A stretch of DNA of 64,000 nt, from positions 1-64,000 of the forward strand of contig JADLGE010000022.1 in the NCBI GenBank assembly GCA_020849475.1, given 5' to 3'. The notes under the pieces are model-generated. The model had not been told where the DNA came from, did no database searches, and saw only the letters and a program-made list of their open reading frames with translations. The stretch is from Gammaproteobacteria bacterium (GTDB lineage Bacteria > Pseudomonadota > Gammaproteobacteria > Ga0077536). Positions 3,497 to 8,697 of this stretch are shown here, one piece after another (the stretch's first letter is position 1; every line of letters begins with the position of its first letter). Both the position numbers and the translations under genes were made by a program.

Positions 3497-5212
3497 TTAC
3501 TTGGTCGCCGGCAGGGCAAACACCACCAGCGCGCTGCCGGGCGTGTCGAGCACCGGCTGGCCGATGATCGAGACCGCGATGCCGCCGCCACCGCTGGTCA
3601 GCGCGACATACTGACGCCCGTCCATCTTCCAGGTCACCGGCTGACCACGCACCGCCGAGCCGGTCTGGAATTTCCACAACACCTCGCCGCTCGTTTCATC
3701 CAGCGCCAGGGCGTAGCCGGTCTGGTTGCCGGTGAACACCAGGCCGCCGCCCGTCACCAGCGCACCGCCGACCATCGGGTACTCGTCCTTGTAACGCCAT
3801 TTGATCTTGCCGGTGATCGGCTCGATGGCGGTGACCGTGCCCCACGAAGATTGATCCTCGCCTTCCGTCACACCCGGACCACCGCCCCAGAACGGCGTGC
3901 CGTTCACGAACACCGAGGTTTCCTTTTCCATCTTGCCGCAGGACTCGACGAGCGGAATGAACAGGGTGCGGCTTTGCGGGCTGTAGGCGTAGGTGTAAGA
4001 GCCATTGTTGCCGCCGACATTGCCGGGGCAGATGAACTCGGGGTTGCCACCGGCCATCGGCACGTATTTCTCATCGACCTGCGGGCGACCGTTGGCATCA
4101 AGGCCCTTGGACCAGTTCAAGCGCTCGGTGTACTGGCTGCCCTTGAGGAACTTGCCGGTCGCGGCGTCGAGCACATACACATAGCCGTTGCGATTGGCCT
4201 GCATGACCACGTGCTGCGACTTGCCGTCTATGTCGATGTCGCCGACCACCACGCCGTTGGTGGCGTCGTAGTCCCACACGTCATGGGGCGTGAACTGGAA
4301 ATGCCATTTCAATTCACCGCTGGCCGGATCGAGCGCCAGCAGCGAATTGGTGTAGAGGTTGTCGCCAAGGCGCGAGTCGCCGTTCCAGTCGGGCGACGGA
4401 TTGCCGGTCGGCCACAGCAGGAGGTTGGTCTTGGCGTCATAGGTGCCGGTGTTCCACGGCGGGCCGCCGCCGGTCTTCCACGAATCACCGGCCCAGGTCT
4501 CGACGCCCTTCTCGCCCGCGGACGGCACCGTGTAACGACGCCACACGCGCTTGCCGGTCTTGAGGTCATAAGCATCGATGAAACCGCGTGCGCCATATTC
4601 GCCGCCGGCGCTGCCGATGATCACGACATCCTTCACCACCAGCGGCGCGCCGGTCGCGCTGTGACCGTTCTTGTAATCGTCCAGCACCACGTTCCACAGC
4701 ACTTTGCCGTCGGCGCGATTGAGCGCCACCAGGCGCGCGTCCAAGGTCGCCATGTAAAGGGTGTTGCCGGAGATCGCCACGCCGCGATTGGTCGGGCCGC
4801 AGCAAATGCGCAAGTCACTCGGCATCTGGTGCTCGTAATGCCACAGCGTTTCACCGCTCTTGGCATCGAGCGCATAGACGTTGTTGAAGGCGGCGGTCAG
4901 ATACAGCACGCCATCGGCAACGATGGGCGCCGCTTCCAGCTGGCCGGCGATACCGGTCTGGAAAATCCAGGCCGGTGCGAGGTTCTTGACGTTGGCCTTG
5001 TTGATGTCGGCCAGCGGGCTGTAGCGACCGTTGTCATAACTGCCGCCGTACATCACCCAGCCACTGTCGTCGGCGGTGCCCTTGGCGAGGCGCTCCGGCG
5101 TGACGGCGGTCAACGGACGGGCGGCGGGCTTGGCGTCGTCGGCCAGCGCCGGGCCGGCCAGCAGCGCGAGCGAAATGGCCAGCGCGAGTGCGTGGTGTTT
5201 GTGGTTCAACAT
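3497..5212 (-). CDS. PQQ-dependent alcohol dehydrogenase of the lanthanide-binding type
   Basis: 571-residue periplasmic quinoprotein; signal peptide to about residue 25 (LLAGPALADDA). It oxidises primary alcohols to aldehydes with PQQ and passes electrons to a cytochrome c. The eight-bladed propeller is shown by repeated W-docking strands such as GETLWHYE, GKVLWNVV and GELKWHFQF. The vicinal disulphide that caps PQQ is C137-C138 (ICCGPTNRG). Predicted metal ligands are Glu205 (GGEYGARG), Asn271 (TGNPSPDWN) and the catalytic Asp314 in VWDYDATN. Asp316, two residues after the catalytic Asp, is the extra ligand that marks lanthanide-dependent XoxF/PedH-type enzymes; calcium enzymes have Ala or Ser there. 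No cytochrome c or PQQ biosynthesis gene lies next to it. Whether methanol or a longer alcohol is the substrate cannot be read from sequence. Confidence 0.88.
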   Translation of the reverse strand: MLNHKHHALALAISLALLAGPALADDAKPAARPLTAVTPERLAKGTADDSGWVMYGGSYDNGRYSPLADINKANVKNLAPAWIFQTGIAGQLEAAPIVADGVLYLTAAFNNVYALDAKSGETLWHYEHQMPSDLRICCGPTNRGVAISGNTLYMATLDARLVALNRADGKVLWNVVLDDYKNGHSATGAPLVVKDVVIIGSAGGEYGARGFIDAYDLKTGKRVWRRYTVPSAGEKGVETWAGDSWKTGGGPPWNTGTYDAKTNLLLWPTGNPSPDWNGDSRLGDNLYTNSLLALDPASGELKWHFQFTPHDVWDYDATNGVVVGDIDIDGKSQHVVMQANRNGYVYVLDAATGKFLKGSQYTERLNWSKGLDANGRPQVDEKYVPMAGGNPEFICPGNVGGNNGSYTYAYSPQSRTLFIPLVESCGKMEKETSVFVNGTPFWGGGPGVTEGEDQSSWGTVTAIEPITGKIKWRYKDEYPMVGGALVTGGGLVFTGNQTGYALALDETSGEVLWKFQTGSAVRGQPVTWKMDGRQYVALTSGGGGIAVSIIGQPVLDTPGSALVVFALPATK

Positions 5213-5278
5213 GGAACTCCCCTTGTGTCGAAAAATCTTGTTTTGATGTTAGCGGACCATTCCGTCACGCATTTCCCT

Positions 5279-5304
5279 GTGGGTCAGACTGAAGTCTTAC
5301 CCAC
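5279..5304. repeat. Palindromic intergenic repeat, family A
   Basis: A 26-base near-palindrome, GTGGGTCAGACT / GA / AGTCTTACCCAC, with one mismatch between the arms. It lies just beyond the 3' end of the crotonase gene (minus strand, 5318-6127) and upstream of the PQQ dehydrogenase. The same core recurs at 30317, 39849, 39891, 45485, 45545 and 59629. Confidence 0.75.
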
Positions 5305-5317
5305 AAAAGGAGATTCG

Positions 5318-6127
5318 CTACAACGGCGAATCCAGATCGAACTTCGGCGCGCGCTTTTCACGGTGTGACTTCACGCCTTCCACTGCTTCGGGGGTGGTGA
5401 AGCCCAGCATCTCCAGTGCGGTCGAGGCGTCGAATGACGGGCCGGCCATGCGGTACCAGTTGTTGAGCGCGTACTTGGTCCAGCGGGTCGCGGCCGGCGC
5501 GCTGTCACGCAGCTTCTCGGCGATGGCGAGCGCGCGGTCCTGCAGTTCTTCATCGGCCACGCACAGCGACACCATGCCGATGCGCTCGGCTTCTTCGCCG
5601 TTCATCGGCTCGCACAGCAGAAGATGGTACTTGGCCTTGGCCATGCCGCACAGCAACGGCCAGTTGATGACGGCCGAGTCGCCGGCCGCCACGCCGAGAC
5701 GGGTATGTCCATCGACGATACGCGCGGACTTGCCGGCGATGGAGATATCGGCCAACAGGCCCGCCACCAGGCCGGCGCCGACCGCCGCGCCATTGATGGC
5801 CGATACGATGGGCTTGGAACAGTTGATGATGTTGTAGACCAGATCGCGCGCTTCCTTCCAGGTGCGTGCACGGACCTTATGGTCATCGATCATTTTCTCG
5901 ATCATGCCGAAGTCGCCACCGGCCGAGAAGGCGCGGCCCTTGCCGGTCAGAATCGCGACGCTGACCTCGGGGTCTTCGTCGATGTCGCGCCAGATGTAGG
6001 TCAGTTCGCGATGACCGTCCTCGTCCAGCGAATTGAGCGTGGCCGGCTTGTTGAAGGTGATGCGCAATACGCGCGGCGAGGGTGAGTCGATTTCCAGCGC
6101 CTGGTATTTCGAATAACGTTCGAGCAT
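5318..6127 (-). CDS. Crotonase-fold acyl-CoA enzyme (enoyl-CoA hydratase/isomerase family)
   Basis: 269 residues with the crotonase layout: the oxyanion-hole strand RAFSAGGDFGMI near residue 65 and the INGAAVGAGLVAGL helix near residue 112, so it binds and polarises an acyl-CoA thioester. The two glutamates used for water addition in classical hydratases are not at their usual places: the first position falls in GAGLVAGLLAD and the second in HTRLGVAAGDSAVINWP. The LGVAAGD form is known in a catabolic subfamily often annotated as enoyl-CoA hydratase, so isomerase, hydrolase or specialised hydratase activity are all possible. ATG 6127 follows an AGGATCTCCC ribosome-binding site; the frame remains open upstream but that stretch is low-complexity. 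Monocistronic. Confidence 0.8.
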   Translation of the reverse strand: MLERYSKYQALEIDSPSPRVLRITFNKPATLNSLDEDGHRELTYIWRDIDEDPEVSVAILTGKGRAFSAGGDFGMIEKMIDDHKVRARTWKEARDLVYNIINCSKPIVSAINGAAVGAGLVAGLLADISIAGKSARIVDGHTRLGVAAGDSAVINWPLLCGMAKAKYHLLLCEPMNGEEAERIGMVSLCVADEELQDRALAIAEKLRDSAPAATRWTKYALNNWYRMAGPSFDASTALEMLGFTTPEAVEGVKSHREKRAPKFDLDSPL

Positions 6128-6306
6128 GGGAGATCCTTGAGTCTTGGACTTCGATGGTGGACGGCGCGCCACACGGTGGCGCATGGCCATCGTAACCCAG
6201 GCCGCCCGATTGAGAAATTCCGCCGCGCCGCCCGACACAAGTGCACAAGCACGGCACTTGGCGCGCGCCGCGGCGCCGGCCATGATGGCGGCGGGGGGCT
6301 TCATTC

Positions 6307-7005
6307 ATGCAGGAACATCTGCGCTTCGACCTCATCGCCTGGGCGAGCGCCATCGCGGTCGGCGTGCTGATGTGGCATTGGCGCTTGCGTGCAACCCTCG
6401 TGAGCCTGCGGGCGCGGGTCGGCGCCGGCTATTTTGCGGCCCTCTCGGCCGGCAGCCTGCTGGGCGCCTACGGTTTTGGCAGTTTGAATCTTTATCTGTC
6501 GGATATCGTCATGCCGGCGCGCAGCATGCTCGGCGCCCTGGTCGGCGCCATTACCGCCGTCGAGATCTACAAGCTTCGCCATGGCATCCGCGGCTCGACC
6601 GGCGTCATCTTCGCGGCGCCCCTGGCCGCCGCCATCGCCGTCGGTCGCATCGGCTGCTACCGCGCCGGCCTCATCGACCAGACCCACGGCATTGCCACCA
6701 CGCTGCCGTGGGGTCATGACTTCGGCGACGGCATTGCTCGCCATCCGGTGCAGTTGTATGAATCGGCGAGCATGGCGTTGGTGCTGATAGCCGTGCTCAT
6801 CGGCTTTGCACGGCGCTCGCCGTGGATGCTGGCCCAGGGCTTTTACCTGATAGTGGGCGTCTACGGCGCCCAGCGCTTCGCATGGGAATTCCTGAAACCC
6901 TATGCGCGCGTGCTCGGCCCCTTCAATGTCTTTCACCTGTTGGCGGCGCTACTGTGCGCCTACGCCATTTACATGGGACGCCATGCCAGCCATGCACGAA
7001 CGTAG
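6307..7005 (+). CDS. Lgt-like membrane protein (prolipoprotein diacylglyceryl transferase family)
   Basis: 232 residues, about seven hydrophobic segments. The best Lgt signatures are GRIGCYRAGLID (residues about 116-127), matching the Lgt GRIGNF-x-NGE motif, and RHPVQLYES (about 144-152), matching Lgt RHPSQLYE. True Lgt moves diacylglycerol from phosphatidylglycerol to a lipobox cysteine. This protein is about 60 residues shorter than E. coli Lgt, and the catalytic-loop Asn is Cys. It is therefore probably not the housekeeping enzyme but a paralogue acting on a lipid or lipidated substrate. Its last 23 bases overlap the radical SAM gene, which in turn overlaps a small membrane protein gene, so the three products very likely work together. 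Confidence 0.75.
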   Translation: MQEHLRFDLIAWASAIAVGVLMWHWRLRATLVSLRARVGAGYFAALSAGSLLGAYGFGSLNLYLSDIVMPARSMLGALVGAITAVEIYKLRHGIRGSTGVIFAAPLAAAIAVGRIGCYRAGLIDQTHGIATTLPWGHDFGDGIARHPVQLYESASMALVLIAVLIGFARRSPWMLAQGFYLIVGVYGAQRFAWEFLKPYARVLGPFNVFHLLAALLCAYAIYMGRHASHART

Positions 7006-8431
7006 CGCCAATCCGCATCTGTTCTACGGCCAGACCACTTCATTGTGCGAGACCTGCCTGCAACTGGTGCCGACCAAGATCCTGATCGAGGACAACGCGG
7101 TCTGGTACCAGAAGCGCTGCGCCGAACACGGCGTGCAGAAGACCTTGATCTCGAGCGACGTCAGCTACTACCGCCACACCCACGACTATCTCAAACCGGG
7201 CGAACGTCCCCATCAACGTCAGACCGTCACCGAACGCGGCTGCCCATGGGATTGCGGCCTGTGCCCTGACCATGAACAACACAGCTGTGTGGGCATCGTC
7301 GAGATCACCGAGCAATGCAATCTGCGTTGCCCGGTCTGCTTCGCCGATTCAGCGCCCGCCCATGGCAGCCATCGCTCGCTCGCGCAGATAGAATTCATGC
7401 TCGACGCATTGGTCGCTTCGGAAGGCACGCCCGACGTGGTGCAGATCTCGGGCGGTGAGCCGAGCATCCATCCCGACATCCTCAGCGTTCTGCGCATGGC
7501 GCGCGCCAAGCCCATCAAGCATCTCATGCTGAACACCAACGGCGTGCGCATCGCGCGTGAAGCGGATTTCGTCGCGGCGCTCACGGAGTTCGCGCCAGGC
7601 TTCGAGGTCTATCTGCAGTTCGATGCCCTGGATGACAATGCCTTGCAGGACATCCGCGGCGCCGATCTGGCGGCAACCCGCTTGAAAGCGCTGGAACATC
7701 TGGAAGCGCACCAGCTCTCGACGACGCTGGTGGTGACGGTCAAGGCCGGCGTCAACGACGCCCACCTGTGGCGCGTGGTCGAGACCGCGCTCACCTACCG
7801 CTGCGTGCGTGGCGTGACCTTTCAGCCGGTGCAGGACGCCGGTCGCAATCCGCGCTTCGACAAGCGCCAACACCGCAGTCTGCTGAGTGACATCCGCCGG
7901 CAGTTGATCAAGGACTCCGGTGTATTCGGCGAGGATGATCTGCTGCCCCTGCCCTGCAACCCGGAATACATCGCCATCGGCTACGCCCTGCGCAATCAGC
8001 AGACGCTGACGCCCATCACGCGTTTCATTCCCAAGCAGGAATTCATCGGCAACGCGCCGGCCAGCATCGCCTTCGAACGCGACCCGCAATTGAAGCAGCG
8101 CCTGTTCGAGGTGTTGTCCCTGTCGGGCGGCGCGCTCAACACCGGCGAGCGCCTGCAGCAATTGCTGTGCTGCCTGCCGGCGCTGCCGACACCGGCCGAA
8201 CTGCGCTACGAACACGTGTTCCGCATTACCATCGTGCAGTTCATGGATCGCTACAATTTTTGCGTGAGCGGCGTGAAGCGTTCGTGCATACACATCGTGC
8301 ACAGCGACGGGCGCATCATTCCATTCGACACCTACAATCTCTTCTATCGCGATCTGCCACCCGGCGCCGACCCACGTTCGCGCGTAGGCCTGGCGCACCG
8401 CGCTTCCACCACAGGGGATGTCAGGCGATGA
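6983..8431 (+). CDS. Radical SAM enzyme of the MJ0619/tetraether-synthase (Tes)-like family
   Basis: 482 residues. The order of features is that of MJ0619/Tes proteins: an N-terminal zinc-ribbon-like half (C22, C25, C46 in CxxC ... CAEHG), a second cysteine cluster GCPWDCGLCPDHEQHSC (C87, C91, C94, C102), then the radical SAM motif CNLRCPVC (C112, C116, C119) that holds the SAM-binding 4Fe-4S cluster, followed by the QISGGEPSIHPD strand. Characterised relatives either join lipid tails through sp3 carbons (archaeal GDGT synthase) or methylate methanopterin precursors. Bacterial members are mostly unassigned. The gene starts within the Lgt-like gene; ATG 6983 has GGGA upstream, ATG 6992 is the alternative. 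Its stop TGA overlaps the next ATG. The lipid role is inferred from family and neighbour, not shown. Confidence 0.78.
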   Translation: MPAMHERSANPHLFYGQTTSLCETCLQLVPTKILIEDNAVWYQKRCAEHGVQKTLISSDVSYYRHTHDYLKPGERPHQRQTVTERGCPWDCGLCPDHEQHSCVGIVEITEQCNLRCPVCFADSAPAHGSHRSLAQIEFMLDALVASEGTPDVVQISGGEPSIHPDILSVLRMARAKPIKHLMLNTNGVRIAREADFVAALTEFAPGFEVYLQFDALDDNALQDIRGADLAATRLKALEHLEAHQLSTTLVVTVKAGVNDAHLWRVVETALTYRCVRGVTFQPVQDAGRNPRFDKRQHRSLLSDIRRQLIKDSGVFGEDDLLPLPCNPEYIAIGYALRNQQTLTPITRFIPKQEFIGNAPASIAFERDPQLKQRLFEVLSLSGGALNTGERLQQLLCCLPALPTPAELRYEHVFRITIVQFMDRYNFCVSGVKRSCIHIVHSDGRIIPFDTYNLFYRDLPPGADPRSRVGLAHRASTTGDVRR

Positions 8432-8697
8432 ATGAGCAGCAAAACCAAACGCGCGGCGGCGGCTTCATGCGCGGCATGGCGATGGCCGTTGGCGTCTTGA
8501 TCATGACCGCGTCGGGCCTCTGCAGTGCCGGCTTTCTGGTCAACATGACCGTCGACTTGCTGGAAGACGGCAGCACTCACCCGCTGGCCGATTTTGGCAC
8601 CGTCCTCGGCATGATCGCCGTGTGGGGCGGCGTGCCGTTTCTGGTCGGCTGGGCTGTGTGGCGCTCATCGCGCGGCAAGCGCGATGACGGCGCCTGA
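8428..8697 (+). CDS. Small two-helix membrane protein, third gene of the Lgt-like/radical SAM operon
   Basis: 89 residues; ATG 8428 overlaps the radical SAM stop (ATGA), so it is translationally coupled. Two membrane spans are visible, about residues 14-37 (MAMAVGVLIMTASGLCSAGF) and 51-70 (GTVLGMIAVWGGVPFLVGWA), joined by a short acidic loop with VDLLEDGS, and a basic C-terminal tail (RSSRGKRDDG). I recognise no family. Position and topology suggest an accessory or anchoring subunit for the two enzymes upstream. Confidence 0.7.
   Translation: MNEQQNQTRGGGFMRGMAMAVGVLIMTASGLCSAGFLVNMTVDLLEDGSTHPLADFGTVLGMIAVWGGVPFLVGWAVWRSSRGKRDDGA

Follow-up and report, generated by a model that had tools for sequence, protein, structure and literature searches.

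Occurrence of an Lgt-like protein with a Tes-like radical SAM enzyme

An Lgt-like membrane protein (Lgt2) and a Tes-like radical SAM enzyme form an obligate, co-inherited pair, and in the window, the 64,000-nucleotide stretch of gammaproteobacterial DNA analyzed here, their genes are followed by a gene for a small membrane protein (microprotein). The existence of this three-part module is well supported, and the trio looks to be a membrane-lipid or protein-lipidation pathway not yet described. The most telling clue to the system is the cysteine of the microprotein, which is positioned like that of a lipobox.

The Lgt2 gene (6307-7005, P0001) encodes an integral membrane protein of 232 residues. 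The radical SAM gene (6983-8431, P0002) encodes 482 residues when read from the ATG at 6983; its frame is open from 6902, and the other likely start is the ATG at 6992. The microprotein gene (8428-8697, P0003) encodes 89 residues with two transmembrane (TM) helices; its ATG start and the TGA that ends the radical SAM gene overlap in the sequence ATGA. All three genes lie on the plus strand, and these coordinates confirm the overlaps described in the first-pass annotation, which assigned no function to the small membrane protein. The flanking genes are on the minus strand and, to judge by their sequences, look like those of an enoyl-CoA hydratase, a PQQ-type dehydrogenase, an AMP-forming ligase, and hydantoinase-type subunits. 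The enoyl-CoA hydratase-like and PQQ-dehydrogenase-like genes (3497-6304) are retained in same-genus genomes (L004, L006), and clustering did not find them conserved across diverse loci. ORF-family clustering over 59 loci recovered only the two enzymes and shadow ORFs and no further conserved genes around the pair, ruling out a wider conserved operon. Viral carriage was also considered, and scans with P0001 and P0002 gave no relatives.

The Lgt-like profile and the radical SAM profile each matched 14 of 397 proteobacterial genomes. These were the same 14 genomes, from 10 genera; the two genes adjoin in all of them, and neither occurs alone in any of the 397. Under independence, we estimate the chance of this coincidence at about 1 in 1e25 before shared ancestry is considered. 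A scan of GTDB contigs using the Lgt-like alignment yielded at least 462 relatives. The best 80 are mostly from Alphaproteobacteria and include one bin labelled Planctomycetota and one labelled Polyangia. In 78 of these best 80 loci the radical SAM gene adjoins on the same strand, and in the remaining two the locus is cut by the contig end; at L044 the radical SAM gene precedes the Lgt-like gene. The distance matrices of the two proteins are strongly correlated (Mantel r of 0.93, reached in 0 of 2000 permutations), indicating that they travel together. The linkage is thus far above chance, and the co-occurrence survey that the first-pass annotation had proposed upholds its coupling of the two genes in other genomes, from Proteobacteria to the two bins just named. 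The window genome and the Bradyrhizobium-like genomes belong to the same phylum and to different classes. Literature searches within open-licence PMC papers that combined Lgt or microproteins with radical SAM enzymes, or concerned TrsS, found no description of this system.

Several loci depart from this arrangement. At L122, from a 72%-complete genome, the radical SAM gene is present and Lgt2 was not found nearby. In L184 (6018-9174, genome G212), a radical SAM gene of the family (44% identical) has no Lgt2 beside it, and after it come a gene for a 294-residue protein whose lipobox (LSAC) looks canonical and a methyltransferase-like ORF; because the G212 genome is 72% complete, Lgt2 may be absent from the assembly only. 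L185 (4634-8689, G272) has two divergent tandem radical SAM paralogues, 27-32% identical to P0002 and separated by an apparent short-chain dehydrogenase gene, and Lgt2 was not found there. One lineage (L045, L065, L068, L071, and L109) has a conserved protein of about 146 residues with four TM helices (MNRADFWCRVLGWLQ...) encoded between the two enzymes, and a 272-residue protein with a signal-like N terminus lies between them at L138 (680-1498, G451).

Lgt2 is an Lgt paralogue distinct from the housekeeping copy

Lgt2 matches the Pfam LGT family (PF01790) with 54 bits (cut-off of 24.9) and misses the three NCBIfam lgt equivalog cut-offs (30.3 versus 334, 29 versus 428, and 19.5 versus 118.9 bits). 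The best structural neighbour of its AF2 model (pLDDT of 93.6) is E. coli Lgt (5azb; Z of 12.7 over 212 residues, runner-up of 6.7); this match comes from the VIA comparison, Lgt not being significant with Foldseek alone. The genome holds a separate full-length lgt on another contig (C83; E of 1.5e-79, against 52 bits for the window copy), and Lgt2 is therefore not the housekeeping copy; the presence of such a gene elsewhere was a test set in the first-pass annotation. In a quick tree with one long branch, the Lgt2 proteins form one clade apart from 25 housekeeping Lgts (SH-aLRT of 100).

The GRxGC motif (GRIGCY in the window) is invariant in the Lgt2 family. Arg114 corresponds to E. coli R143 and is found in 87/87 relatives, as are Y186 (E. 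coli Y235) and R190 (R239); E152 (E202) and the equivalents of G142 and G145 are also invariant, and E194 (E243) is kept in 85 of 87 and replaced by Asp in the other 2. Three positions differ from E. coli: Cys117 (codon 6655-6657) stands in place of N146, and K197 in place of R246, each in all 87 relatives, and H103 is lost, with E, L, V, A, or I instead. E. coli Lgt requires R143, R239, Y235, R246, and H103; Arg143, Arg239, and Tyr235 bind phosphatidylglycerol, and H103 loss and R246K are inactivating (PMC4728403). Other Lgts naturally carry N146C, R246K, and changes at H103, and a Leptospira Lgt with N146C is partially functional (PMC13251419). Lgt2 is of the Lgt family with GRIGCY for GRIGNF, as first annotated; since N146C is found in other Lgts, loss of the Asn says little in favor of altered chemistry. 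With its key residues partly kept and partly substituted, Lgt2 is a putative diacylglyceryl transferase.

The radical SAM protein represents a distinct subfamily related to Tes

The radical SAM protein matches Pfam Radical_SAM with 75 bits and the HMPTM zinc ribbon with 62.5 bits (cut-off of 27). A PDB profile search identified Tes (7tol, E of 7e-87), and Foldseek aligned the model over its full length with 7tom (E of 4.1e-32, TM scores of 0.76/0.74, 492 columns), Tes being the sole full-length structural relative; within the C-terminal half of this model, pLDDT is low in places (358-406). Three ligand sites, numbered from the ATG at 6983, are invariant and spaced as in Tes: a rubredoxin-type site C22/C25/C46/H49 (C-x2-C-x20-C-x2-H), an N-terminal cluster C87/C91/C94/H97 (CxxxCxxC plus His), and the radical SAM catalytic cluster C112/C116/C119 (CxxxCxxC). 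In the CxxC...C..H and GCPWDCGLCPDH motifs, the ligand spacing is identical to that of Tes (PMC9433317).

The C-terminal part is different. The Tes Cys438 position is Ile or Val in the family, the Met439 position is Val in 56/80 relatives and Met in 5/80, and the Tyr459 position is Phe in 76/80; in the absence of these Tes residues, the sulfur-intermediate chemistry of Tes may not apply. The family has cysteines of its own (C102, C325, C396, and C397) and C435, which aligns with Tes Cys456; of these, C325, C396, C397, and C435 may ligate a different C-terminal cluster. The full MJ0619/Tes layout claimed in the first reading therefore stands for the N-terminal and central parts and fails for the C-terminal cluster. 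The top NCBIfam score, over nearly the whole length, is that of TrsS (NF045646; 308.9 bits, cut-off of 490), and Tes (NF045702) scores 261 bits (cut-off of 450). Since both lie far below their cut-offs, the protein represents a distinct subfamily. A possible selenocysteine in relative L119 was rejected, its TGA being a normal stop.

A microprotein with a conserved cysteine follows the pair

In 70/79 loci, the radical SAM stop is directly followed by an ORF for a small protein with two or more TM helices, and in 53 this ORF starts exactly at ATGA; the same rule applied at random positions found one in 181/3000 (6%). Selected regardless of Cys, about 68 of these 70 ORFs have a Cys at the end of TM1 (67 by script, plus L036, which carries LAGGC). 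In the window this is Cys32 (codon 8521-8523), within ASGLCSAG at the outer end of TM1, and same-genus genome G002 has a microprotein with SGLCS. Only a Gly and, two residues on, the Cys are invariant in a 32-member alignment that was partly selected for the Cys motif and has a mean identity of 27%. The numbers of Lys/Arg and Asp/Glu residues are 92/43 in the N-terminal tail, 35/101 in the loop, and 198/21 in the C-terminal tail, a pattern which predicts an N-in/C-in topology with the Cys on the outer side.

Prolipoproteins carry their acceptor thiol on an N-in helix, at its outer end, which is the place where phosphatidylglycerol is bound by Lgt. By its predicted topology, the microprotein places its Cys likewise at the outer end of such a helix. 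It lacks the small residue at -1 of a canonical lipobox: Leu occupies this position in 33/61 microproteins (SGLC in the window), and a second TM helix comes after. Because the geometry is prolipoprotein-like and the motif non-canonical, a dedicated Lgt paralogue is a natural reading.

The dN/dS values of 0.15 to 0.49 in relatives indicate purifying selection, and thus real genes, which evolve faster than the enzymes. Among the 397 genomes, every strong microprotein profile match (E of 2e-11 or better) lies next to the enzyme genes, and 9 of the 14 positive genomes have one; in the other 5, inspection revealed a small TM protein that shares a GxC- or GC-type motif of this kind and is encoded upstream of, between, or downstream of the enzyme genes, so that all 14 have a microprotein-type neighbour. 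Tandem paralogues are common. The Cys lies in the last TM helix at L096, L117, and L118, and the pair has no adjacent microprotein at L046, L076, L105, and L121. No Pfam family matched the microproteins above cut-off. At Bradyrhizobium loci (e.g., L055, L069, L080, and L095), a second conserved Cys (RxGCLTA) is found at the inner end of TM1, which thus has a Cys at both membrane faces.

Proposed mechanism and alternative explanations

For the chemistry of the module, we infer a scheme in which the microprotein Cys receives a lipid from Lgt2, and the Tes-like enzyme is responsible for making or remodelling that lipid; taken as a whole, we hold it tentatively, at somewhat below an even chance. 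The microprotein would be the client: Lgt2 would move a (di)acylglyceryl or related lipid onto its Cys, which would sit at the outer leaflet, the side on which Lgt offers phosphatidylglycerol to an acceptor thiol; this client step is nearly as likely as its opposite. The cytoplasmic radical SAM enzyme would accommodate lipid chains in a hydrophobic tunnel like that of Tes and modify an unactivated carbon by tail coupling, methylation, or sulfur insertion. That it acts on a lipid is slightly more likely than not, and tail-to-tail C-C coupling in particular is unlikely. Its product might be a special lipid for Lgt2, or the lipid might be finished on the client; since Lgt works at the outer face of the membrane, and the inner face is the site of the radical SAM enzyme, a lipid must cross. 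This need weighs against the scheme, as do the non-canonical lipobox, the H103 and R246 changes in Lgt2, the missing Tes residues, and the few loci lacking a microprotein or Lgt2. The order of steps, the identity of the lipid, and the type of reaction are provisional parts of this scheme. That the genes form one system, as put forward in the first-pass annotation, withstood the two refuting conditions tried, absence of a second lgt and lack of conserved linkage. A lipid or lipidated substrate, also suggested there, is plausible from both enzyme families.

The radical SAM enzyme might instead couple or alkylate the tails of membrane phospholipids to give an unrecognised proteobacterial lipid, with Lgt2 only passing or presenting a diacylglycerol unit to a non-protein acceptor and the microprotein serving a structural or regulatory role with its Cys unlipidated. 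The Tes fold and cofactor sites, the two integral membrane partners, and the proposal that bacterial Tes homologues make membrane-spanning lipids (PMC8941075) all favor such a pathway; it leaves unexplained why microproteins only about 27% identical retain the Cys and why tandem duplicates of them are so frequent, and we consider it fairly unlikely. Modification of the microprotein itself by the radical SAM enzyme, as a RiPP-like C-S or C-C link at the Cys with Lgt2 as a membrane receptor or lipid-binding partner, is less likely still. The order of enzyme and then small ORF, the tandem paralogues, and the fast evolution around one fixed Cys do resemble maturase-precursor pairs, but the nearest structure is Tes (7tom, E of 4e-32), with MoaA and SPASM peptide maturases at E of 1e-10 or worse; a client with two TM helices, no obvious leader, and a Cys predicted on the outer face fits poorly, and the invariant Lgt-type active site would have no explanation.

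That the enzyme methylates pterins or is of the TrsS type, with Lgt as a chance neighbour, is very improbable. TrsS gives the top NCBIfam score and the Pfam zinc ribbon is named from a pterin methyltransferase annotation, but the TrsS cut-off is not reached, the linkage to Lgt2 is absolute in the 397-genome sample, and the MJ0619 crystal structure argued against a pterin role (PMC9433317). Membership of PF01790 is what speaks for ordinary housekeeping lipoprotein lipidation by Lgt2, a reading whose probability is practically negligible given the full-length lgt elsewhere in the genome, the equivalog cut-offs missed by far, and the distinct clade.

Lipoproteins are, to our knowledge, the only proteins on which Lgt-type chemistry is known, and archaea are where radical lipid chemistry of the Tes type is established. 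The trio recurs across many Alphaproteobacteria, among them the common Bradyrhizobium, Caulobacter, Phenylobacterium, and Rhodobacter relatives. If lipidation by the Lgt2/radical SAM module is correct, part of the unassigned bacterial Tes homologues would gain a concrete substrate, and protein-bound or radical-modified lipids may have been overlooked in well-studied bacteria. In its fullest form, this would be a second, so far unrecognised protein-lipidation pathway of Proteobacteria, in which an Lgt paralogue attaches a lipid with radical-altered and possibly C-C-joined tails to a Cys of two-TM microproteins that LspA never cleaves, a proposal we regard as somewhat unlikely.

Comparison with known systems

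Mss, the bacterial membrane-spanning lipid synthase, is reported to couple two fatty acids (PMC11868695); the radical SAM family of the module was placed by the Tes match only. TrsS (NF045646) differs in its partners from the radical SAM family, which is accompanied by Lgt2 and the microprotein and in which no selenocysteine was seen. M. smegmatis MSMEG_5408 and the Leptospira Lgt have, like Lgt2, Cys for N146, and the passages of their source consulted mention no radical SAM linkage (PMC13251419).

Archaeal Tes/GDGT-MAS (MJ0619, 7tol/7tom) and the radical SAM protein share the full-length fold and the three ligand-site spacings at 27-28% identity. The labile cluster ligand Met439 and Tyr459 of Tes, completely conserved in 1000 archaeal homologues, are replaced in the radical SAM family, which has its own C325, C396/C397, and C435. 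Lgt2 and E. coli Lgt (5azb/5azc) have a common fold over 212 residues, R143, E202, Y235, and R239, and the HPxxLYE motif, and their clients would present the Cys at the same membrane depth. Unlike E. coli Lgt, Lgt2 is about 50-60 residues shorter, has lost H103, carries the N146C and R246K replacements, and is always paired with a radical SAM gene, in a genome that has a housekeeping lgt of its own.
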